Shown: positions 51,479-64,000 of the stretch, piece by piece
Position numbering within the stretch: position 1 is the stretch's first letter
Layout: each line of letters starts with the position of its first letter
Assembly (NCBI RefSeq): GCF_023195915.1
Contig: NZ_JALPRP010000001.1
Coordinates: forward strand, 1,302,001-1,366,000
Direction of reading: 5' to 3'
Length of the DNA stretch: 64,000 nucleotides
Origin: Methanoculleus sp. 7T
GTDB taxonomy: Archaea; Halobacteriota; Methanomicrobia; Methanomicrobiales; Methanoculleaceae
Made by a program: the position numbers and the translations under genes
The notes under the pieces: generated by a model
What the model was told of the DNA's origin: nothing
Databases searched by the model: none
The model's input: only the letters and a program-made list of their open reading frames with translations

Positions 51479-52657
51479 TCACCCCCTACCTCGGCCCATA
51501 CCCCGGATGGGTCCTGCCCCGGCGAGGTCTCCCTCACCCGTCCCTACTCCGGTACCGGCATCCTCCCCGGGAACGCGCCTCACCTGCGGTCGCGCCGGGC
51601 GGAGCGATCGGCGGAGCAGTCCGGCACAGCACTTCAGGCAGAAGGGCGTGCAGAGCCAGACGCCCATCTCCAGAAGGGGAAGGAGGCCGTTCTTGCGTAT
51701 CCGATAACGGTAACTCTCAAGGTTCATCTTCATATGGGCCGGCGCAATCTCCTCAAACCACCGTGTCTCGGTGATCCCGCCCTCGGCGACCGGTTGCGAG
51801 ATGTCTGTAATGAAAGACCGGATATCCTCGCCTCGGGCTCCCTCTGCGGGGCGAGGCACAAAATCGTCGTCGACCGTGAGCGGTATTACTTCGTACTCCC
51901 CGACGCCGCCGCTCTTTGACAAGTCGACCGCGAGTATGAAGCCCTCCGGCGAGAGGTTGTGGGGCCAGTTCGGGTCGAACTGGAACATGCCGAGCGAGTA
52001 GGCGATGAGCCCGCCGTGGTAGCGTTCGACCGCTTGCATGGTATGGGAGTGGTGTCCGAGGATCAGGGTGGCGCCCGCCTCGATGAGCCGGTGGGCGAGG
52101 TCGATCTGCCGGGGGGAGGGGTAGTAGGCCATCTCGGTTCCCCAGTGCAGCGAGACCGCGATATGGTCGCACCTGCCCGCAAGAGACGCAATATCCGCAA
52201 TGATATCCTCTTCGACCAACCGGTTGACCGAGATGCCGTCGAAGACCGCCGTTCGGCCGGTGGTATAGCCGGCAAACCCTATCGAGATGCCGTTTCTCTC
52301 CACAACGACCGGTCTCTGCCGGTCCGATGAAGCCGATGCGCCGATAGGGAGAATTCCGTGGGCCTCAAGTGCGTGGAGGGTGTTCTGAAGGCCTTCGGCC
52401 CCGAGATCGGCGGTATGGTTGTTCGCCACGCTGAGGAGATCGAACCCTGCGTCAGCCAGGTACCCGGCCGCCTCCGGCGGCGAAGAGATCACATGGTGCT
52501 TCCTTGCCCGCTCTCCGGTCTCCGAGAGGGCGGTTTCGAGATTCCCGAAGAGGAGGTCCTTGTCCCGGAGGATATGCAGGATCTCCCCGAACGGGTGCCG
52601 GTCGTTTCCCGTCTGCAGCCAGATGTCGCCTACGGCCATCAACCTGAGTTTATCCAT
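51479..52657 (-). CDS. CapA-like metallophosphoesterase-fold protein
   Basis: This 392-residue protein belongs to the CapA/PgsA family (poly-gamma-glutamate capsule proteins) with a calcineurin-like fold. Metal-site blocks are LMAVGDIWLQTG, LFGNLETALS, LSVANNHTADLG, SLHWGTEM and LGHHSHTMQ. The last 60 residues are a Pro/Gly/Arg-rich tail. There is no signal peptide, so it is probably cytoplasmic or tail-associated. ATG 52657 overlaps the stop of the CapK-like gene by 8 bases, so the two are coupled. The substrate is unknown. Confidence 0.87.
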   Translation of the reverse strand: MDKLRLMAVGDIWLQTGNDRHPFGEILHILRDKDLLFGNLETALSETGERARKHHVISSPPEAAGYLADAGFDLLSVANNHTADLGAEGLQNTLHALEAHGILPIGASASSDRQRPVVVERNGISIGFAGYTTGRTAVFDGISVNRLVEEDIIADIASLAGRCDHIAVSLHWGTEMAYYPSPRQIDLAHRLIEAGATLILGHHSHTMQAVERYHGGLIAYSLGMFQFDPNWPHNLSPEGFILAVDLSKSGGVGEYEVIPLTVDDDFVPRPAEGARGEDIRSFITDISQPVAEGGITETRWFEEIAPAHMKMNLESYRYRIRKNGLLPLLEMGVWLCTPFCLKCCAGLLRRSLRPARPQVRRVPGEDAGTGVGTGEGDLAGAGPIRGMGRGRG

Positions 52658-54080
52658 GACTCTCATATCGATATGTCCTCTCGTCCAGCGGCAGATCCTG
52701 TATCAGGAACTGATACTTGCCGCGTCGAGTGCGGGGGATCTTTCCGACGAAGCGGATGGTCACATCCACGTCGCCTTCGAACTTCTTCTCAAGTTCCCGG
52801 AGAATATACTCGGTATCTCGGTCGGTATATCCCGGTTTCCTCACGATCCGGAGGAGTACCTCGCCTTCCTTCTTCTGGTAAAACTGAAACTGTGCAACGT
52901 TGTCGAAGACATCGGAGTGCATATTGACCGCCGTCATCGATATCAGCCGGCGGCTCTTCGTCACGATGAACTCGTGCAGGCGCCCTTCCACCTTCTCGAG
53001 CAGGGGGTACTGCCTTCCGCAGGAGCACGGGCCGTTTCCAAGGACCGCCACGTCCATGGTCCGGTAGCGGATGAGGGGGAAGATAGGGTTCATAAGGCTT
53101 GTCGCGACCACCTCCCCCATCGCCCCGGGTCCCTCCACGGGGCGTCCGTCTCTTCCGATGAGTTCGACGATGCCGTATTCGGGGAAGATGTGGTAGTGGG
53201 TGCTCTCCTCGCACTCCCCGGCAAGCACGGTCTGCTCGGAGTTCCCGTACCACGAGAAGACCCGGCACTTGAAGGCCTCTTCGAGGAGGCTCCGTTGCCA
53301 GGGGTAGAGGTTCTCGGACCCGCAGAGGATCGCTTTTACCGTCGGGAACGGCGCGACCTCGTGGTCCACCATGTACCGGGCCAGGATCACGGCCATCGAG
53401 GGGTACGACTGGATGAACCGAGGCCGGAACCTCCGGATCCGGTCGATGTAGGCGGGCAAGGTCTCTTCGGTCATGTGATGGGAGGACATCAGGAGCCAGC
53501 GGCCGAAGAGGGTCTTCTTCCAGTAGACCTCGTCTTTGGCGGACCCGACGATGTAGCCGCGGAGGACGACACATTTATCGCCGAACCGGTAGCCGACGCG
53601 GTCCCACTGGGTCTTCATGAACGCCCACTCGCGGGCCCGGGAGGCGCCTTTCTCGTAGTAGAACCCGACCGGGATGCCGGTGGAGCCGCCGGTAGTGACG
53701 TATTCGAAGGCGGTTTCGGGGTAGTTCGTGGCTTTGAGGTCGGCGAGGTTGTTCTGGAGGTCTTCCCGGGTCAGGAAGGGGAGGCGTTCGAGGTCGCGAA
53801 GGGTCTGGATATCCTCGGGAACGAGGCCTCGCTCGTCGAAGACCCGGCGGTAGTAGGGGACGTTTGCGTAGGCGTGGTCGAGCAGGCGCGCGAGCGCCTG
53901 CAGTTGGTAGGCCTCCAGTCTCTCCCGGCTCCACCCCCGGGACTCTTGGAGGAGGGCGTAGGTCTCTCTATATGCGGAGTATGCCGGGAGTACGCGAAGT
54001 GCCCTCATCGTCACAGAGTTTTCAAGCCCGAGAGCCTTCAACCTCCGAAATATCATCCGCATGCCTATCGACATCGCCAT
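52650..54080 (-). CDS. CapK-like adenylate-forming ligase, copy 1
   Basis: This 476-residue ANL-superfamily protein resembles CapK and phenylacetate-CoA ligase. Visible motifs are the P-loop-like TTGGSTGIPVGFYYEK, FSWYGNSEQTVLAGECEES, RYRTMDVAV and, near the C-terminus, PRTRRGKYQFLI with the expected catalytic Lys. CSCGRQYPLLEKVEGR is also typical. It would activate an acid with ATP and pass it to CoA or an amine. It is coupled to capA. A 512-bp stretch (53461-53972) is almost identical to copy 3. ATG 54080 follows AAGGA; other in-frame ATGs (54095, 54074, 54062) remain possible. Confidence 0.88.
   Translation of the reverse strand: MAMSIGMRMIFRRLKALGLENSVTMRALRVLPAYSAYRETYALLQESRGWSRERLEAYQLQALARLLDHAYANVPYYRRVFDERGLVPEDIQTLRDLERLPFLTREDLQNNLADLKATNYPETAFEYVTTGGSTGIPVGFYYEKGASRAREWAFMKTQWDRVGYRFGDKCVVLRGYIVGSAKDEVYWKKTLFGRWLLMSSHHMTEETLPAYIDRIRRFRPRFIQSYPSMAVILARYMVDHEVAPFPTVKAILCGSENLYPWQRSLLEEAFKCRVFSWYGNSEQTVLAGECEESTHYHIFPEYGIVELIGRDGRPVEGPGAMGEVVATSLMNPIFPLIRYRTMDVAVLGNGPCSCGRQYPLLEKVEGRLHEFIVTKSRRLISMTAVNMHSDVFDNVAQFQFYQKKEGEVLLRIVRKPGYTDRDTEYILRELEKKFEGDVDVTIRFVGKIPRTRRGKYQFLIQDLPLDERTYRYESHG
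53461..53972 (-). repeat. CapK-like conserved block, copy 1
   Basis: This block of 512 bp differs from 60325-60836 at only two positions by eye. It encodes the N-terminal half of the ligase. Confidence 0.9.
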
Positions 54081-54590
54081 GTCGATCCTTCGCATTAAAC
54101 GTTTTGCTTAAGTCGGAACGGATTGGCACCGGCAGCAGAGCAGAGGGGCGGATACTCCCGGGGCATGGTAGAGTTTGTTTAAAAAAAGTTTTCGGAATAC
54201 GGGATGGATACCTGATCCCGGCACGATGCACGGCAGAAATGCTTTAAAAAATCTGGAAATAACTTTTTCTCCGCAAAAATGACCCAGATGTCGTCGTATG
54301 TCCCCGAGCGGCTGCCCTCCCATGAACCGAACGAGACATCGTCCACGGCAAGAAGGCGGAGTGCGACCATGCCCCTACCTCACGCATCGCTGTATATAAT
54401 GATTTCCATCTGAATGACCTGGTCCCGCGGCCGGAGGCGCTTTCCGATCCGGGCAGGAGAACCCTCATCCTATGGGGGCGATCGCACTCCATCGTAAGGC
54501 TCGGCGAGCCCGCAGAAAGATATATATGATGCAGGGAGGTGATTAGAGGTCGCCGAACGGCAAACAGGGTAACGAGGAGATAGTGACGGA
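54081..54590. other. AT-richer spacer upstream of the acyltransferase genes
   Basis: This 510-bp gap separates the divergent capK1 and the first acyltransferase gene. It contains long A/T runs (54179-54290), a 63-codon minus-strand ORF (54179-54370) whose first third has gene-like codon use but no recognised relative, and a TATA box (54519-54528) for the plus gene. A perfect GGAGGTGAT at 54535-54543 has no start codon at useful spacing. Confidence 0.4.
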
Positions 54591-55607
54591 ATGACCGCGA
54601 GCACAATCGACGATAAAGATACCTGGGATACCTTCATTGACGAAAGTCCATCCGGACTCCTCTTTCACAAGTGGGACTACTTGCACTTGACGGCAAAGCA
54701 TACGGAGAGCACGCTCCTCCCGTATGCGGTCTATAAAGGGAACGAACCCATCTGTGCCTTCCCGCTCTTCTGCAAGAGGGTGCACGGCGTGAGCACCGTC
54801 TTCTCCCCTCCGCCCCTCACCATAATTCCCCATCTAGGGTGCGTGATGAGCAAAAACTTCGAGGGGCTTAAGCAGAGCAAAAAGGAGTCCCTCCTTGGAC
54901 TGGTCGCAGAGGATATCCGGAATGAGATCCGGGACCTCTCGCCGAACTACCTCTCGATAACCTTCGTCCCGGAGTTCAACGACATACGCCACTACCTCTG
55001 GGACCGATGCGATGCAAAGATCCGGTATACCTACACCATCAACCTGGAGCAGCCGCTTGAGGTAATCTGGAACAACCTTCACTACAAGTTACGGAATAAA
55101 CTGAAGAAAGAAGCCGGGTCGGGTCTTAGGTTGGAGAAGTCGGACGATGTATCCACGCTTCACCGGCTCGTCTCCGAGCGCTACCGGGACCCGTCGCTCG
55201 ATATCCCGCCCATCAAGCGGGGTTACCTCGAAGATCTCGTGCGTGCCTATCCGGACAGGATCGGGGTCTACTACCTCTACGATACGGAGGATGAGGTCGC
55301 GGGGGTAGTGGCGACCCAGGAGTACAAACGGTTTCTGCTCTGGATGGGGACGCCACGGCTGGAGAGCGCTCATGCCGGCAACGAGTACCTCCAGTGGCTC
55401 TTGATCCGGCATGCGAAGGCCCAAGGTTACCGGACCTTCGAGAACATGGGGGCGAACAACCGGGACCTGATCTTCTTCAAGTCGAGGTTCAACCCTGACC
55501 TCACGATGTACTTCCAAGTCGAGAAGAAGGATACCCTCGGGGCGTTCTCCGAGTGGGCATACCTCTCCTTCGTCAAAAAACTGATGACTGCGGCCGGCAG
55601 GATATAG
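54591..55607 (+). CDS. FemAB/GNAT-like N-acyltransferase, copy 1
   Basis: The 338-residue protein belongs to the double-GNAT FemAB-like group. It shares GLLFHKWDY near residue 25, FSPPPLTIIPH near 70-80, RNKLKKE near 165-172, NEYLQWLLIRHAKAQGY and FENMGANNRDLIFFKSRFNP with its two neighbours. FemAB-like enzymes transfer aminoacyl or acyl groups to amino groups of cell-surface precursors. No signal peptide or membrane helix is seen, so it acts in the cytoplasm. The start is supported by GAGGAGAT upstream. The true donor (aminoacyl-tRNA or acyl-CoA) is unknown. Confidence 0.82.
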   Translation: MTASTIDDKDTWDTFIDESPSGLLFHKWDYLHLTAKHTESTLLPYAVYKGNEPICAFPLFCKRVHGVSTVFSPPPLTIIPHLGCVMSKNFEGLKQSKKESLLGLVAEDIRNEIRDLSPNYLSITFVPEFNDIRHYLWDRCDAKIRYTYTINLEQPLEVIWNNLHYKLRNKLKKEAGSGLRLEKSDDVSTLHRLVSERYRDPSLDIPPIKRGYLEDLVRAYPDRIGVYYLYDTEDEVAGVVATQEYKRFLLWMGTPRLESAHAGNEYLQWLLIRHAKAQGYRTFENMGANNRDLIFFKSRFNPDLTMYFQVEKKDTLGAFSEWAYLSFVKKLMTAAGRI

Positions 55608-55853
55608 TGCCGTCGCCGGACCCTGCCCCTTCATCTCCCTCACTATTTTACTTCTCATCGGAGTGATGACTTACAATTCTATGAGTCCGGTATCCGGACC
55701 CCCGTCGCCCGGAAGGACCCGGAGGGATCCTGGGTTTATGTAGCGCCGGGGGCTCCGCGCTCTACCGCTGCCGCCGGCGACCGCTACGTTTATCTAGGAA
55801 ACCGCTGGTAGTAGGAAACCTGTCGGATCTCGACAGAGTGGGGGAAGAACGAT

Positions 55854-56882
55854 TTGCCAGTCAAGGTTGTCACTGACAGGGAGACGTGGGATGCATTCAT
55901 CGATGCCAGCCCAGCCGGCCTCCTCTTCCACAAATGGGATTTTTCGAAGATCACAGAACGTTATACAGGATATACGGCCCGCCTCTATGGGATCTATAAG
56001 GGGGAGGAACTCCTCGCCGCCTGTCCGCTCTTCTGCAAGCGAACCGGCGGCCTCTCTATCGTGCTCTCTCCCCCGCCCATGCAGGCGGTCATACCCTATC
56101 TGGGCGTCGTGATGGGCAGAGACTACGCAGCGGCAAAGCAGAGCAAGAAAGAGTCGGCGTTGCAGGTGGTCGCCGAAGGACTCCGAGAAGAACTCGGGAA
56201 CCTAACTCCGAACTACCTCTCAATGAAGTTTGTTCCGGGTTTTCACGACATCCGCCAGTTTATTTGGGATGGTTACCAGGCCCGGATCAACTACTCTTAC
56301 GCGATCGACCTCGCCCCTCCTCTCGAAACCCTCTGGGAGAACCTGAACGGGAAGTTGCGGACAAGCCTCAGGAAGTTCGAAGAGAACGGGTACTACCTGG
56401 AGGAGAGCGATGATCTCAATCTCTTCTACGAGACAGTAAGCCGACGGTTCAGCCAACCGGAGATGGACATCCCGATGATCACCAGACAGTACTTCGAGGA
56501 GATCTTCCGGGCATACCCGGATCACGTGCATGTCTACCACCTCTATGACCGGGACGGAGACCTCAAGGGCGTCGGCACGACCCAAGAGTACAAGCGATAC
56601 GTTCTGTGGGTCGGAGGGCCGAAGATAAACGGGACGTCGGCAAACGAGTATCTCCAGTGGCTCCTGCTCCGGGACGCGAAAAGGAAGGGATTTTCGGAGT
56701 TTGAGAATACGGGTGCGAACAACCCGAACCTGAATATGCATAAGGCGAAGTACAACCCGGACCTCTCGATTTATCTCGAGGTGAGCAAGAAGGACGGCTT
56801 GGGGAAGGCGGCGGAGTGGCTCTACAGCAACGTCGTCAACAGACCGTGGATTAAGAGGAGAGTGGTCCCCTACATCGAGTAG
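55854..56882 (+). CDS. FemAB/GNAT-like N-acyltransferase, copy 2
   Basis: This 342-residue paralogue shares GLLFHKWDF, FSPPPMQAVIPYLGVV, PEMDIPMITRQYFEEIFRAY, NEYLQWLLLRDAKRKG and FENTGANNPNLNMHKAKYNP with copies 1 and 3. The only start giving the family N-terminus is TTG 55854, 9 nt after a GGGGGAAG run. It is separated by 246 bp from copy 1, so it may have its own promoter. The C-terminal end WIKRRVVPYIE is shared with copy 3. Confidence 0.82.
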   Translation: MPVKVVTDRETWDAFIDASPAGLLFHKWDFSKITERYTGYTARLYGIYKGEELLAACPLFCKRTGGLSIVLSPPPMQAVIPYLGVVMGRDYAAAKQSKKESALQVVAEGLREELGNLTPNYLSMKFVPGFHDIRQFIWDGYQARINYSYAIDLAPPLETLWENLNGKLRTSLRKFEENGYYLEESDDLNLFYETVSRRFSQPEMDIPMITRQYFEEIFRAYPDHVHVYHLYDRDGDLKGVGTTQEYKRYVLWVGGPKINGTSANEYLQWLLLRDAKRKGFSEFENTGANNPNLNMHKAKYNPDLSIYLEVSKKDGLGKAAEWLYSNVVNRPWIKRRVVPYIE

Positions 56883-57049
56883 CGCACGCACCCGGCGGGC
56901 CCTGTGGGGGCCGGGTCTCTTCCGGACCGCCGGGGAATGGTACAGGCCCCTATGACTGACGGGCGCCCAAGGCAAGATATAAATAGGTGTTAGAGCGATC
57001 CTGCAACGGACGCGATCCGGCACGACCGATCGGCTGGATGTTGGGCTCT

Positions 57050-58081
57050 ATGGCGCTTGAACTCATAAATGATAAGGAAGTATGGGACGCGTTCGTTGAT
57101 ACAAGTCCACATGGGCTGCTTTTTCATAAGTGGGATTACACAACGATCACCGCGCAGCATACAGGTTACCGGCTTCTCCCCTACGGGGTCTACAAGGGGG
57201 AGGAGCTCGTCTGTCTCGCCCCGCTCTACTTCAAGAGCACGCATGGGATAAAGACGCTCTTCTCACCCCCGCCCATGCAGGCGGTCATCCCCTACCAGGG
57301 CCTCATCCCGGCAAAGGAGTTCGATACGCTGAAACTGAGCAAGAGGGAGGCGATCATGGATCTCATCGCGGGCGACCTCTCTGCCGAGATCGACGCGATC
57401 TCACCGCATTATTTCTCCCTGACTCTCGTGCCGGGCCTCGCCGACATCAGGCAATTCCTTTGGCGGGGGTATACCCCGAAGGTCCGCTATACTTACATCA
57501 TCGACCTCTCGCAGCCGGCCGAAGCGATCTGGGGCGGCTTCCACAGCAAACTGCGCGGCAAGATCCGGAAGGCCGAGGAGGCCGGAATGAACCTCGTGCG
57601 GAGCAGAGACATCTCGGAGTTGTATGCGTCGATTACCGAACGGTTCAGTCAACCCGAGATGAACATCCCGATGATCAGCCGAGCCTACTTTGAGGACCTC
57701 TTCCGGGCGTACCCCGACCATCTCGCGGCCTACTACCTCTACGACCGGGAAGGTGCGCTCACGGCGGCTGTCGCCACCCAGGAGTACAGGCGTTTCCTGT
57801 TCTGGATGGGGGCGCCGCGGATCGAGAGCGGCTATGCCGGGAACGAGTATCTCCAGTGGCTCCTGATTCGGCATGCAAAGGCTTGCGGGTATCCGATCTT
57901 TGAGAATATCGGGGCGAACACACCGAACCTGAACTTCTTTAAATCCCAGTTCTGCCAGGGTCTGGGCATCTACGTGGAGGTCTGCCGGAAGGATATGGTC
58001 GGAACCCTGGCGGAATGGGCGTACAGTTCCATCGTCAACAAACCCTGGCTGAAGCGCAAGGTCGTCCCCTACATCGACTGA
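57050..58081 (+). CDS. FemAB/GNAT-like N-acyltransferase, copy 3
   Basis: This 343-residue paralogue has GLLFHKWDYTTIT, FSPPPMQAVIPYQG, QPEMNIPMISRAYFEDLF, NEYLQWLLIRHAKACGY and FENIGANTPNLNFFKSQF. A TATA box (56976-56985) predicts transcription from about 57006, so ATG 57050 (or 57038) is the start and the in-frame codon at 56987 is too early. It meets capK2 tail to tail with 4 bp between stops, binding the acyltransferase and ligase genes into one locus. Confidence 0.82.
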   Translation: MALELINDKEVWDAFVDTSPHGLLFHKWDYTTITAQHTGYRLLPYGVYKGEELVCLAPLYFKSTHGIKTLFSPPPMQAVIPYQGLIPAKEFDTLKLSKREAIMDLIAGDLSAEIDAISPHYFSLTLVPGLADIRQFLWRGYTPKVRYTYIIDLSQPAEAIWGGFHSKLRGKIRKAEEAGMNLVRSRDISELYASITERFSQPEMNIPMISRAYFEDLFRAYPDHLAAYYLYDREGALTAAVATQEYRRFLFWMGAPRIESGYAGNEYLQWLLIRHAKACGYPIFENIGANTPNLNFFKSQFCQGLGIYVEVCRKDMVGTLAEWAYSSIVNKPWLKRKVVPYID

Positions 58082-58085
58082 TCCG

Positions 58086-59474
58086 TCAGAGATCCCCGAT
58101 TGAGATCGGAAGTTTCTGAATGAGGTACCGGAACTTACCGCCCTCCGTGCGAGGGATCTCGTCGACGAAACGGACATGCACGTCCACGTCGTCACCGAGT
58201 TGCCACCGGAGTTCACGGGTCAACTGCCGGGTATCCTCGTCGGTGTACGTGGGCTTTCTGACGACCTTTATAATCAGTTCGCCCATCTTCTCTTGGTACA
58301 TCTGAAACTGCCTGATGTTCTCAAAAGCTCCCGATTCGTAGTTGATGGGGGTGACGGAGATCAAATGCCCGCTTCGGGTCACGATGAACTCTTGGAGCCT
58401 TCCTTCCACCTTCTCGAGCAGGGGGTACTGCCTTCCGCAGGAGCATGGGCCGTTTCCAAGGACCGCCACATCCCTGGTCCGATAGCGGATGAGGGGGCAG
58501 GCGAAGTTGGTGAGGTTTGTCGCGACCACCTCCCCCATCGCCCCGGGTCCCTCGACGGGGCGTCCGTCTCTTCCGATGAGTTCGACGATGCCGTATTCGG
58601 GGAAGATGTGGTAGTGGGTGCTCTCCTCGCACTCCCCGGCAAGCACGGTCTGCTCGGAGTTCCCGTACCAGGAGAAGACCCGGCACCCGAAGGCCTCTTC
58701 GAGGAGGCTCCGTTGCCAGGGGTAGAGGTTCTCGGACCCGCAGAGGACCGCCTTCACCGTCGGGAACGGTGCGACCCCGTGCTCTCGCATGAATCTAGCC
58801 AGAATCACGGCCGTAGAAGGATAGGCATGGATGAACCGAGGCCGGAACCTCTGGATCCGGTCGATGTAGACGGGCAGGGTCTCTTCGGTCATCTGGTGGG
58901 AGGACATGATCAACCAGCGCCCGAAGAGCGCTCGCTTCCAGTAGATGCCGCTCGATGCCGCGTCCACCACATGCCCCCGGAGGACGACGCATTTGTCGCC
59001 GAACCGGTAGCCGACGCGGTCCCACTGGGTCTTCATGAACGCCCACTCCCGGGCCCGTGAGACACCCCGCTCGTAGTAGAATCCCATGGGGGTGCCGGTG
59101 GAACCTGATGTGCGCACGTACTCGAAGGCCGTCTCGGGGTAATTTTTGGCCTTCAGGTCGGGGAGGTTTGCCTGGACAATCTCTTTTGTCAGGAAGGGGA
59201 GGCGTTCGAGGTCGTGGAGGGTTTGGATATCCTCGGGAACGAGGCCTCGCTCGTCGAAGACCCGGCGGTAGTAGGGGACGTTTGCGTAGGCGTGGTCGAG
59301 CAGGCGCGCGAGCGCCTGCAGTTGGTAGGCCTCCAGTTCCTCCCGGCTCCACCACTGTGACCGCTGGAGGTGCGTGTACATCTCCCGATAGACCCGGTAG
59401 GACGGCACCAGGCTGAGCGCCTTTATGGTGAGCGGATTTGCACGGGATACCCATTTCAAAAGATCGGCCTTCAT
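58086..59474 (-). CDS. CapK-like adenylate-forming ligase, copy 2
   Basis: This 462-residue paralogue of copies 1 and 3 carries RTSGSTGTPMGFYYERG, FSWYGNSEQTVLAGECEES, RYRTRDVAV and PRTEGGKFRYLI with the catalytic Lys. It differs most from the others in the first 40 residues and in the last 130, where the acid-binding and mobile lid regions lie. Short blocks (for example 59239-59337) are identical to copies 1 and 3. ATG 59474 has GGAGATG upstream. It lies 15 bp downstream of copy 3, so both are probably one transcript. Confidence 0.87.
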   Translation of the reverse strand: MKADLLKWVSRANPLTIKALSLVPSYRVYREMYTHLQRSQWWSREELEAYQLQALARLLDHAYANVPYYRRVFDERGLVPEDIQTLHDLERLPFLTKEIVQANLPDLKAKNYPETAFEYVRTSGSTGTPMGFYYERGVSRAREWAFMKTQWDRVGYRFGDKCVVLRGHVVDAASSGIYWKRALFGRWLIMSSHQMTEETLPVYIDRIQRFRPRFIHAYPSTAVILARFMREHGVAPFPTVKAVLCGSENLYPWQRSLLEEAFGCRVFSWYGNSEQTVLAGECEESTHYHIFPEYGIVELIGRDGRPVEGPGAMGEVVATNLTNFACPLIRYRTRDVAVLGNGPCSCGRQYPLLEKVEGRLQEFIVTRSGHLISVTPINYESGAFENIRQFQMYQEKMGELIIKVVRKPTYTDEDTRQLTRELRWQLGDDVDVHVRFVDEIPRTEGGKFRYLIQKLPISIGDL

Positions 59475-59489
59475 GCACACATCTCCCGG

Positions 59490-60917
59490 TCAGGCGGATA
59501 TGTCCGAGGGTATATTCTCGCTCTTTGTCGGCTCCCTTTCGCCGAATCGGATCGGCAGGCTCTGGACGAAGTAGCGGTACTTGCCGCGGGCGGTGAGGGG
59601 AATGCTGTCGACATACCTGATGGTGACGACAACGTCGTCCCCGCAACTCCGGCTCACCTCATGATAGAGATACTCCGCGTCCAGATCGCTGAACCCGGGT
59701 TTTCTCACGACGTTTAGGATGACTTCCCCAACCTTCTCTTGGTAGAATTGAAACTGTTTAACATTATCGAACGCATCGGTATCGATGTTCATGGTAATCC
59801 CGGAGAGAAGTTCCCCCTTGCCCGTCACGATGAAGTCTTGGACACGGCCTTCCACGCGTTCGAGCAAGGGATAGTTCCTCCCGCAGGTGCAGGGTCCTTG
59901 GGCTGCCGTGGCAAGGTCCATGGTCCGATAGCGGATGAGGGGACAGACGAAGTTGGTGAGGTTTGTCGCGACCACCTCCCCCATCGCTCCGGGTCCCTCG
60001 ACGGGGCGCCCGTCTCTCCCGATGAGTTCGACGATGCCGTATTCGGGGAAGATGTGGTAGTGGGTGCTCTCCTCGCACTCCCCGGCAAGCACGGTCTGCT
60101 CGGAGTTCCCATACCAGGAGAAGACCCGGCACCCGAAGGCCTCTTCGAGGAGGCTCCGCTGCCAGGGGTAGAGGTTCTCAGACCCGCAGAGGACCGCCTT
60201 CACCGTCGGGAACGGTGCGACCCTGTGGTCCACCATGTACCGGGCCAACGCGGCGGCTGTGGATGGGTACCCCTGGATAAACCTGGGTTTGAACCTCCGA
60301 ATCCGGTCAATGTAGGCGGGCAGGGTCTCTTCGGTCATGTGATGGGAGGACATCAGGAGCCAGCGGCCGAAGAGGGTCTTCTTCCAGTAGACCTCGTCTT
60401 TGGCGGACCCGACGATGTAGCCGCGGAGGACGACGCATTTATCGCCGAACCGGTAGCCGACGCGGTCCCACTGGGTCTTCATGAACGCCCACTCGCGGGC
60501 CCGGGAGGCGCCTTTCTCGTAGTAGAACCCGACCGGGATGCCGGTGGAGCCGCCTGTAGTGACGTATTCGAAGGCGGTTTCGGGGTAGTTCGTGGCTTTG
60601 AGGTCGGCGAGGTTGTTCTGGAGGTCTTCCCGGGTCAGGAAGGGGAGGCGTTCGAGGTCGCGAAGGGTCTGGATATCCTCGGGAACGAGGCCTCGCTCGT
60701 CGAAGACCCGGCGGTAGTAGGGGACGTTTGCGTAGGCGTGGTCGAGCAGGCGCGCGAGCGCCTGCAGTTGGTAGGCCTCCAGTCTCTCCCGGCTCCACCC
60801 CCGGGACTCTTGGAGGAGGGCGTAGGTCTCTCTATAGGTGCTGTAGGAAGGAAGGATGCCGAGGGCTTTCGCCGTGAACGACTCCCGGCCGCAGATCCTC
60901 TCTCCCAGACGAATCAT
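59490..60917 (-). CDS. CapK-like adenylate-forming ligase, copy 3
   Basis: This 475-residue paralogue has an N-terminal half almost identical in DNA to copy 1 and a different C-terminal third (NIDTDAFDNVKQFQFYQEKV; catalytic Lys in LTARGKYRYFV). ATG 60917 follows GAGGAG at 7-8 nt. It is the first gene of a capK3-capK2 transcript with a predicted leader of about 170 nt: the TATA box lies at 61110-61122, and the leader contains a perfect 11-bp hairpin at 61011-61036. Confidence 0.87.
   Translation of the reverse strand: MIRLGERICGRESFTAKALGILPSYSTYRETYALLQESRGWSRERLEAYQLQALARLLDHAYANVPYYRRVFDERGLVPEDIQTLRDLERLPFLTREDLQNNLADLKATNYPETAFEYVTTGGSTGIPVGFYYEKGASRAREWAFMKTQWDRVGYRFGDKCVVLRGYIVGSAKDEVYWKKTLFGRWLLMSSHHMTEETLPAYIDRIRRFKPRFIQGYPSTAAALARYMVDHRVAPFPTVKAVLCGSENLYPWQRSLLEEAFGCRVFSWYGNSEQTVLAGECEESTHYHIFPEYGIVELIGRDGRPVEGPGAMGEVVATNLTNFVCPLIRYRTMDLATAAQGPCTCGRNYPLLERVEGRVQDFIVTGKGELLSGITMNIDTDAFDNVKQFQFYQEKVGEVILNVVRKPGFSDLDAEYLYHEVSRSCGDDVVVTIRYVDSIPLTARGKYRYFVQSLPIRFGEREPTKSENIPSDISA
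60325..60836 (-). repeat. CapK-like conserved block, copy 3
   Basis: Partner of 53461-53972; two differences in 512 bp by eye. Confidence 0.9.
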
Positions 60918-61010
60918 CGTGTTCTCTCCTCTTCTCATGTGATCTTCTGCCGTGTGCACCGCGGCGGCGTCGATCCGTTGCCTCTTCTCTTCGCCGCTCC
61001 CCGTTCATCC

Positions 61011-61360: not shown

Positions 61361-61403
61361 CCCGGAGCCGCGTACCGTCGATGCGACGGTGCGCGGCCCC
61401 GGG
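61361..61403 (+). promoter_or_regulatory. Long hairpin over the start region of the radical SAM gene
   Basis: Positions 61361-61380 pair with 61384-61403 (20 positions, one A-C mismatch, one G-U pair, loop ATG). The TATA box at 61305-61314 puts the mRNA start near 61335, so the stem lies in the leader and contains the GTG start 61389. Confidence 0.6.
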
Positions 61404-62606
61404 ATAGGGGGGATAATAATTCTTCAGAAGACCGTACCTGATAGCAGTAGCGAAGCGGAGATCTTCCCGGGTCTTCCGACTGAAAATGACATTCTGGACG
61501 AGATACGATCATTGGCGGGCGGGTTACGCAGACAAAATGGAACCGCCCCGGAGAATCTCGATTTTACCGTTCCTATCGGTTGGGAGGAGCGGATCGGGCA
61601 CCTGGACGACCAGCCGATCAAACGGCTGATCGTCTTCCTCCGTTCCACCGGTTGTGAGTGGGTCGAGAAGACCGGGGGGTGCACCATGTGCGGATTTTAC
61701 TGTGCGACATCCCGAGGCAGAGAGGTCTCGGCAAAAGAGTATGTCGCGCAGTTCGAGTATGTGATGGATGCCGTCGATCTGGGAGACTACCCGGTCGTCT
61801 CGATATACAACGATGGGAATATTTTTAACGAACGCGAGATGCCGGTTGCCGCCATCGAGAAGATCTGCTCGTACATCGACGGATACAAGAATATCAAGAA
61901 GGTGGTTGTCGAGTCAAGGATAGACTACTCTCCCGACGGGCGTGTGGAGAAGATGAAGAAGGCCCTGAACGGGCGGCAGCTCGAGGTGGCGTTCGGGTTT
62001 GAGTCTGCAGACCCGCAGGTGATGAACCTCTGCATCAACAAGGGTTTTTCGGCCCACAATTTCGATCTCTTCCATTCGAGGATGCAGGGTATGGGCGTGC
62101 AGACCAAGCCGCTCCTCCTCGTCAAGCCGCCGTTCCTCACCGAGGCCGAGGCGGTACGCGACGTCCTGCAGACCGTTTCGTACTGCGTATCCCGCGGGAT
62201 CGACTACGTCGACCTTGAGGTGACGACGGTCGAGAAGAACACCGTCGTGCACGAACTCTGGAAGAACAACCTCTACCGCCCGCCGTGGCTCTGGAGCCTC
62301 ATCGATCTCCTGCAACAGTCCAAGGAGCGGTTCGGGGACCGTGCCCATGTCTACGTCAGCCCCTGGACCTACTCGGTCGAGTCCCTCGACTGGGCTAGGA
62401 ACTGCGGGGAGTGCGACGCCGAGTTCGTCAAGGCGATCGAACGTTACAACTGCCACTTCGATACGGCGGAGTTCGAGGGGCTGGACTGTTCGTGCCGGGA
62501 CGACGGGTGGAAGGAGGCCGTTGCGGCAGAGGACCCCAGGACGATCCCGGAGAGGATCCGCGAGCAGCTTGCGTATGTGCGAAACGCGAGGCTCTCGGCG
62601 GAATAA
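61389..62606 (+). CDS. Radical SAM protein, archaeosine biosynthesis RaSEA type
   Basis: This 405-residue radical SAM protein resembles RaSEA, the partner of ArcS that completes archaeosine (G+15) in tRNA. The cluster motif is GGCTMCGFYC (CxxCxxxC, near residues 97-106), followed by SIYNDGNIFNE, EVAFGFESADPQVMNLCINK and TKPLLLVKPPFLTE. The start is uncertain: GTG 61389 is the only ordinary in-frame codon, but it lies in a long hairpin. A purine-rich GGGGGGAT (61407-61413) precedes in-frame ATA/ATT codons at 61416-61421. No arcS gene is in the window. Confidence 0.85.
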   Translation: MRGPGIGGIIILQKTVPDSSSEAEIFPGLPTENDILDEIRSLAGGLRRQNGTAPENLDFTVPIGWEERIGHLDDQPIKRLIVFLRSTGCEWVEKTGGCTMCGFYCATSRGREVSAKEYVAQFEYVMDAVDLGDYPVVSIYNDGNIFNEREMPVAAIEKICSYIDGYKNIKKVVVESRIDYSPDGRVEKMKKALNGRQLEVAFGFESADPQVMNLCINKGFSAHNFDLFHSRMQGMGVQTKPLLLVKPPFLTEAEAVRDVLQTVSYCVSRGIDYVDLEVTTVEKNTVVHELWKNNLYRPPWLWSLIDLLQQSKERFGDRAHVYVSPWTYSVESLDWARNCGECDAEFVKAIERYNCHFDTAEFEGLDCSCRDDGWKEAVAAEDPRTIPERIREQLAYVRNARLSAE

Positions 62607-63070: not shown

Positions 63071-64000
63071 CTACAACCCGACCGTGCCGATGTCGATCTC
63101 CTTGGGCATCCCGGTATCGATCGACTCCCACGCGAGGAACGTCGCAAGCGTCGTCGCGACGCTGCCGGCGAAGTCCGGCTCTTCTCCCTTCACGAACGCC
63201 AGGAGTTCCTCGGGAAACCCCTTCTCCTGGGCGAGCCACCGCCTCTCCCGCGTCGCCTTCCCGCCCTTCCTGAGTTCGAGGTCGCGGAAATCGGTGATCC
63301 TCCCGACAGCGTTGTCGCAGAAGACCTCGACGGTCTCTTTCGGGTAAGAGCGGTCGCCGAGCGTCGTGTAGGTGACGGTGCCGAGCGACCCGTCGTCGAA
63401 CGTCAGGGTCGCCTGGAAGTTATCGTACTTCCGGAGGGTGCCGATCGGTTCGATCGCCCGGGCATAGACCTGGACCGGCCGTGCCCCGGTGATATACTGC
63501 ATAAAGTCGATGAAGTGACAGCACTCCGAGATCAGCATCCCGCCGCCCTGCTCGTCGTCGTGCACCCAGTGCTCGGGCGGGATCTGCCCGGCGTTGACGC
63601 GGTAGTGCAGGATCGCAGGCGTAGCGCGGTTCCCGAAGAACTCCTTCATCCTCCGCGCGAGGGGTGAGTAGCGCCGGTTGAACCCGACCATCAGCCGCTG
63701 CCCGGACTCATGCCACGCCTCGACGATCCTCCGGAGCTCGTCGGTATCGGTCGCAAGCGGCTTCTCCACGAAGACATCCTTTCCGGCACGCAACGCATCG
63801 ATCGCCATCGGTGCATGAAGGTCGTTTCTGGTCGCGATCATCACCGCATCGATATCTGGGTCCTCAAGGATCTTCCGATAATCGGTGGTGCAGTAGGAGA
63901 ACCCGTACTTCTTCGCGACCGAGTGCGCCGAAAGCCCGGTCGCGGTCGCAAGCCCCGCAAGGTTCACGGGGAGCCCAGGCAGGTGGGGATAGAGGGCGCT
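63071..64000 (-). CDS. Gfo/Idh/MocA oxidoreductase, 5' end beyond the window
   Basis: This frame is open to the right edge (310 codons visible). It encodes a Gfo/Idh/MocA NAD(P)-dependent oxidoreductase: the second half of the Rossmann domain (DPDIDAVMIATRNDLHAPMA, FVEKPLATD with the conserved EKP) and the C-terminal beta-sheet domain (GGGMLISECCHFIDFMQYIT, with the active-site His). Such enzymes act on nucleotide sugars or inositols in surface-polysaccharide loci. The sequence before the visible Rossmann part (ALYPHLPGLP) suggests either a two-domain dehydrogenase fusion or a missing NAD-binding N-terminus. Confidence 0.88.
   Translation of the reverse strand, partial: SALYPHLPGLPVNLAGLATATGLSAHSVAKKYGFSYCTTDYRKILEDPDIDAVMIATRNDLHAPMAIDALRAGKDVFVEKPLATDTDELRRIVEAWHESGQRLMVGFNRRYSPLARRMKEFFGNRATPAILHYRVNAGQIPPEHWVHDDEQGGGMLISECCHFIDFMQYITGARPVQVYARAIEPIGTLRKYDNFQATLTFDDGSLGTVTYTTLGDRSYPKETVEVFCDNAVGRITDFRDLELRKGGKATRERRWLAQEKGFPEELLAFVKGEEPDFAGSVATTLATFLAWESIDTGMPKEIDIGTVGL

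Follow-up and report, generated by a model that had tools for sequence, protein, structure and literature searches.

Ligase and FemAB genes at the Methanoculleus locus

The window that we analyzed is a stretch of 64,000 nucleotides, positions 1302001-1366000 of contig G000:C1, in the 2.6 Mb genome of Methanoculleus sp. 7T (G000). Near its right end lie a gene for a CapA-like (PGA_cap) metallophosphoesterase (51479-52666, minus strand; PF09587, 7e-60) and the gene for ligase A, a PaaK/CapK-type adenylate-forming enzyme (52650-54095, minus strand; NF045666, 2e-41, and PaaK models), which overlap by 17 bp. They are followed on the plus strand by three FemAB-like transferase genes, F1 (54591-55607; PF13480, 1e-12; FemX/FemA fold), F2 (55854-56882; PF13480, 9.5e-9) and F3 (57050-58081; PF13480, 8e-7), and then by two more PaaK/CapK-type ligases on the minus strand, ligase B (58086-59480; NF045666, 2e-43; PF00501, 1e-7) and ligase C, which has distinct ends (59490-60959; NF045666, 9e-43). 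The F3 frame is open from 56987, and its start is likely the ATG at 57050. The genes are arranged in three strand blocks, ligase C-ligase B (minus), F1-F2-F3 (plus) and ligase A-CapA (minus). The ORF list and the profile searches confirmed the locus as originally described, with all seven genes at their places, the families as expected and a convergent gap of 4 bp between the ends of F3 (58081) and ligase B (58086). The gene set is far beyond chance, since it is kept throughout the genus Methanoculleus.

The ligases belong to the PaaK/CapK-type ANL enzymes by homology, fold, the A3/A5/A7/A10 motifs and the catalytic lysine, and in the profile search each of them matched the PaaK model with a value near 1e-30 or lower. 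The A10 motif was originally given as PRTxxGK for all three; this form was found in two of them, but ligase C reads IPLTARGK, and its orthologues have PLT in place of PRT in 12/12 genomes compared. The A10 lysine itself is invariant among 22 relatives. Ligase A matches PaaK structures at 6e-32, and its AlphaFold model (mean pLDDT 84, with the first ~32 and the last ~11 residues unreliable) best matches PaaK1/2, a Bacteroides acyl-CoA ligase, 2-hydroxyisobutyryl-CoA ligase (HCL) and NatL2/AjiA1. Fold, motifs and the A10 lysine are thus common to the Methanoculleus ligases and the known PaaK/CapK-type enzymes, to which the former add an N-terminal extension of ~50 residues. The PaaK homology could suggest catabolic phenylacetate-CoA ligases, but the scores against the PaaK equivalog models TIGR02155 and NF041878 (104-128 for cut-offs of 646 and 700) are too low for phenylacetate catabolism, and such use of the ligases is unlikely, as judged from sequence.

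For the transferases, F1-F3 all pass PF13480 (Acetyltransf_6) with 29.7-48.8 bits for a cut-off of 22, while in PF02388 (FemAB) F1 has no match and the other two reach only 18.8 and 21.4 against a gathering cut-off of 24. Their best NCBIfam model is TIGR03019, with scores (47-52) far under its cut-off of 260. The F1 model (pLDDT 88) has a tandem-GNAT fold and, with 338 residues against 335, about the size of FemX; its nearest folds are FemX, FemA, the streptothricin peptide synthases and MprF.

Association of the ligases with a glycan cluster and with FemABs

An archaeosine biosynthesis gene (61389-62606), encoding the radical SAM protein RaSEA (above its NCBIfam cut-off), separates the ligases from a glycan cluster, and the same gene stands between them in most Methanoculleus. 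The first cluster gene encodes an ADH-Gfo/Idh fusion, whose C-terminal part (63071-64000, minus strand) is in the window; the 715-aa protein is cut by the window end and continues in the neighboring region L101. The fusion is accompanied by an orphan 396-aa protein, a WcaI-like glycosyltransferase, UDP-ManNAc dehydrogenase, UDP-GlcNAc 2-epimerase and an AglJ-like glycosyltransferase. The 396-aa protein (L101:5215-6405) has weak terpene-cyclase-toroid similarity only, and a plasmid search for its homologues found none. Neither a VimE-like deacetylase nor a Wbp 3-aminotransferase was recognized by profile searches in the window locus or L101, and no exosortase was seen at the locus.

In G036 and G037, which belong to other families of the order, the ligase directly adjoins the genes of the fusion, 396-aa protein, glycosyltransferase and dehydrogenase. 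The fusion served as one marker and the 396-aa protein as the other; both are present in the same 25/120 genomes, among them all genomes that have the close ligase clade; one genome (G104, 89% complete) has both markers without the ligases, and in G004 and G010 ligases, FemABs and both markers are missing together. The adjoining cluster and this co-occurrence tie the ligases to the glycan pathway and, with the overlap of CapA and ligase A, support the surface-polymer role proposed at the outset.

The CapA-ligase A pair is found also in G036 and most Methanoculleus. The presence of CapA and its coupling to ligase A speak for a poly-gamma-glutamate or other CapA-type peptide polymer system, but PgsB/CapB was not found anywhere in the genome by profile search, and the missing synthetase contradicts synthesis of the PgsBCA/CapBCA type. 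In addition, G022 keeps the three ligases but has no CapA next to ligase A, and we regard a polymer of this kind as highly improbable. In the sister genus, CapA is followed by an asparagine-synthase-like protein (L093:14041-16062; TIGR03108, 1.7e-10), which recalls the WbpS-type amidotransferases of the Wbp/Vim pathway.

Copy numbers were compared in 12 complete Methanoculleus loci. Three ligases are present in 12/12, whereas the FemABs at the locus number one (G022, G058, G072), two (G046, G052, G068, G092) or three (G000, G016, G028, G034, G040). F1 is kept in all 12 loci, F2 is often lost or decayed among relatives, and remnants of F2 or F3 were detected in G052, G058 and G092. The sister genus (G080, G116) has two ligases and two FemABs, and in G036 and G037 ligase and glycan genes are present with no FemAB match at the threshold used. 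The original prediction of a 3+3 system, in which each ligase serves its own transferase and the two numbers co-vary among relatives, is rejected by these gene counts and by the decayed FemABs.

In the wider sample outside the family (247 genomes of the phylum), the ligase was found in 33 genomes, FemAB in 52 and both in 18. In 11 of these 18 genomes the two lie at most 10 kb apart, and each ligase is accompanied by one to five FemABs; by a rough estimate based on genome size, a random ligase would be this close to a FemAB in only a few percent of the genomes. Ligase and FemAB are associated, yet without a fixed ratio. Independent occurrence in related genomes had been named in advance as evidence against the prediction: it does count against the pairing, but not against the glycan role, which is supported by the repeated neighborhood in other archaeal families.

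Draft genomes break inside the ligase genes (G063:C45, G084:C20, G088:C67, G100:C3, G108:C5 and others), probably due to the near-identical cores, and ligase counts from drafts are unreliable for this reason. A solo FemAB close to F1-F3 (G000:C2:419943-420968, L020; L102-L105) is conserved across Methanoculleus at a separate site; its neighbors (ThiF, PIN, histidine-kinase and ABC-transporter genes) include no glycan gene, and it was dismissed as a glycan candidate. G034 has an extra PaaK-like ligase (L210:6863-8143) in another glycosyltransferase cluster, with no FemAB nearby.

Gene conversion in the ligase core

The overall identity among ligases A, B and C in G000 is 75-78%, because A and C share long stretches of 99-100% identical DNA. 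Over residues 61-210 the A and C genes are 99-100% identical, third codon positions included, while the third-position identity of the paralogues at residues 391-480 is 0.30-0.53. The homogenized core corresponds to residues 56-335, located at 53091-53930 in ligase A and 59955-60794 in ligase C, and the equivalent core of ligase B (58509-59348) is partly homogenized; all three are on the minus strand.

In the 12 genomes, every A and C core (24/24 cases, 12/12 each, silent sites included) has its nearest relative in the paralogue of its own genome, and so has the B core in 3/12. For residues 14-52 and 385-470, on the other hand, the nearest relative is the positional orthologue in 36/36 cases for each segment. 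Accordingly, A, B and C each form one clade in the tail trees (SH-aLRT 98-99), and the core tree groups each A with the C of its own genome in 10/12, with B falling inside or beside A/C in G022 and G068. Constraining the core tree to an A clade or a C clade was rejected by 1047 and 1000 log units, and runs of A-C concordant sites were longer than in every shuffle in 12/12 genomes. The same effect was detected between the two ligases of the sister genus, and the FemAB paralogues of the same loci gave no concerted-evolution signal.

Gene conversion homogenizes only the core of the ligases, and the ends follow position. It is the explanation of the pattern because the silent sites rule out selection on the protein and the single-contig genomes (G034, G040, G092), which have the same pattern, rule out assembly. 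The breaks of drafts within these genes could have pointed to an assembly artefact producing near-identical copies; this explanation, as well as the catabolic one, is left with a minimal probability. Closeness of paralogues at silent sites in one domain only characterizes domain-limited concerted evolution of the mtrA type, and the ligases display it. The mtrA-1/mtrA-2 pair of Methanomicrobiales and Methanococcales is the closest evolutionary precedent, with one domain homogenized per genome by gene conversion and the other end staying different (PMC4632066). It differs in that two copies of a methanogenesis subunit are involved, whereas the present case concerns three ligases of a glycan locus, which differ at both ends and of which one partly resists conversion. 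Three paralogues with a common recombining core also set the Methanoculleus ligases apart from PaaK1/2, HCL and NatL2/AjiA1.

Ligase B is itself partly converted (G022, G068), so that it is not fully insulated. Nevertheless, eight core positions separate it from A and C in at least 11/12 genomes and are kept despite conversion on both sides: 134, 136, 141 and 143 around the P-loop, and 181, 202, 207 and 229 in or close to the stretch aligned with the 'GYGLFTGG' region of PaaK, which from this alignment is the probable acid pocket. Under the same rule (at least 11/12 genomes), no core position separates A from C.

The meaning of the shared core can be read in two ways. It may be a by-product of recombination, with conversion acting where the DNA is alike, halting at the diverged tails and having no functional meaning. 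The tails are near silent-site saturation (0.4-0.5 identity), which in itself would block recombination, and the homogenization of the core may have had such a neutral origin, in tails too diverged to recombine. Arguing against a mere by-product, B keeps its eight sites at the P-loop and probable pocket where A and C have none between them, purifying selection acts on the tails (amino-acid identity of 0.84-0.89 between orthologues), and the core boundaries coincide with the start of the PaaK homology and a point just before the C-terminal domain. We give the by-product explanation a probability slightly short of even. Alternatively, the shared core may be selected as a system, in which a single A/C core would be maintained (e.g., for substrate specificity or mixed dimers), the tails would route the same acid to different acceptors, and B, shielded at the P-loop and pocket, would supply a second acid to the same glycan; we consider this rather unlikely in its full form.

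Proposed route of glycan acylation and related systems

Bacterial and archaeal surface-polysaccharide loci commonly contain CapK-type ligases and FemAB-type transferases. In the literature that we searched, no paper was found giving the acid activated by a CapK-type ligase, and nothing specific was found on CapK with FemAB in archaea.

We tentatively propose, with a confidence somewhat below one half, that the locus is a surface-glycan modification unit in which A and C activate one acid and B another, the ends of the ligases direct delivery and the FemABs perform the transfer. PaaK/CapK-type ligases would convert small acids to acyl-adenylates and perhaps further to acyl-CoA. A and C, with one core renewed per genome by gene conversion, should activate the same acid because their catalytic core is common, and ligase B, with P-loop and pocket residues of its own, would prefer a different one. 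The N-terminal tail and the C-terminal domain of each ligase may decide the acceptor, the partner or the place of delivery. The adjoining UDP-ManNAc/uronate and glycosyltransferase cluster would provide the glycan precursors, and the FemAB-fold transferases would modify an amino sugar of this glycan with acyl or aminoacyl groups. The acid, the acceptor and the handover from ligase to FemAB are what we infer in this scheme, and transfer by FemAB is the most likely step after the ligase. FemAB cannot serve as the sole acceptor, because the FemABs vary from one to three at a constant number of ligases and the ligase of G036 and G037 has no FemAB match.

Relatives of the FemX type work with aminoacyl-tRNA and would not require a ligase, which counts against the handover. 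The lack of a recognized deacetylase or 3-aminotransferase at this locus, either of which might provide a free amine, also weighs against the scheme. The ligases and FemABs may instead act separately on the same glycan, the FemABs adding an amino acid from aminoacyl-tRNA to an amino sugar, in the manner of FemX, and the ligases activating another acid, perhaps the carboxyl of the sugar itself for amide formation. The nearest folds of F1, the G036 and G037 ligases and the 34 of 52 FemAB genomes outside the family in which FemAB occurs without a ligase are in line with separate action, and so is the presence of the PaaK-like NatL2/AjiA1 among the structural matches of ligase A, given that some PaaK-like enzymes form bonds without CoA. 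On the other side, the ligase-FemAB neighborhood is repeated in distant families, and the FemX-like fold of the F1 model, compatible with aminoacyl-tRNA use, does not decide the donor. Separate action appears possible to us but doubtful, and we retain acyl transfer by the FemABs from ligase-activated acids as the working scheme.

The Wbp/Vim linking-sugar pathway of Porphyromonas gingivalis and Tannerella forsythia (VimE, VimA, WbpS; PMC7468200) is, by analogy, the best guide to the possible FemAB chemistry here. Acylation of an amino uronic sugar is believed to be the task of a FemAB-type enzyme in this pathway: the proposed role of VimE in P. gingivalis is to take off an acetyl group and that of VimA to attach serine, or glycine in T. 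forsythia (PMC7468200). VimA matches TIGR03019, the model that scores best for F1-F3 although they stay far below its cut-off. Unlike the Methanoculleus locus, the pathway includes the VimE-like deacetylase and the 3-aminotransferase, and it is described without a PaaK/CapK ligase.

The XrtA/PEP-CTERM exopolysaccharide loci contain the same families in a glycan setting (FemAB TIGR03019, a CapK-like protein and polysaccharide deacetylase; PMC1569441), but the scores here are under the equivalog cut-offs, no exosortase was seen at the locus and triple ligases were not found described for those loci. The HfsK/HfsH pair of the Caulobacter holdfast (PMC5362036) provides a tandem-GNAT FemX-like N-acyltransferase in a surface polysaccharide pathway; it differs in having no ligase partner described and in its regulation by c-di-GMP.

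Each part of the Methanoculleus system is of a known type; what appears to be new in the searched literature is their combination in three ligases that have two distinct ends and include one partly resistant copy. It adds another example of gene conversion that acts on only one part of a protein; the main text of a survey of prokaryotic concerted evolution (26 genes) names no ligase or polysaccharide gene (PMC6053082). Natural recombination has in effect produced a genus-wide domain-swap, with a shared catalytic core set against three fixed sets of ends, and the eight residues that mark ligase B lead to direct, testable predictions on substrate and acceptor.

The S-layer N-glycan of Methanoculleus marisnigri reportedly carries a 3-N-glyceryl amino uronamide, and G034 is presumably M. 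marisnigri JR1. An N-glyceryl group as the product was set aside as a lead only, since the likely GlcNAc3N locus of G034 is without FemAB or ligase.

A related module, with the recurrent order DUF354 protein, PaaK-like ligase, deacetylase and one to five FemABs, was detected in several archaeal families (L184-L195, L021, L098, L099) and makes up several of the close ligase-FemAB neighborhoods found outside the family. Its deacetylase is nearest to VimE (1e-27 to 1e-30, below the cut-off), so that VimE-like deacetylases accompany FemAB in this module as they do in the Wbp/Vim pathway. On a Roseobacter litoralis plasmid, a 738-aa annotated glycosyltransferase (L216:8149-10365) contains a PaaK-like ligase region and is apparently a ligase-glycosyltransferase fusion.
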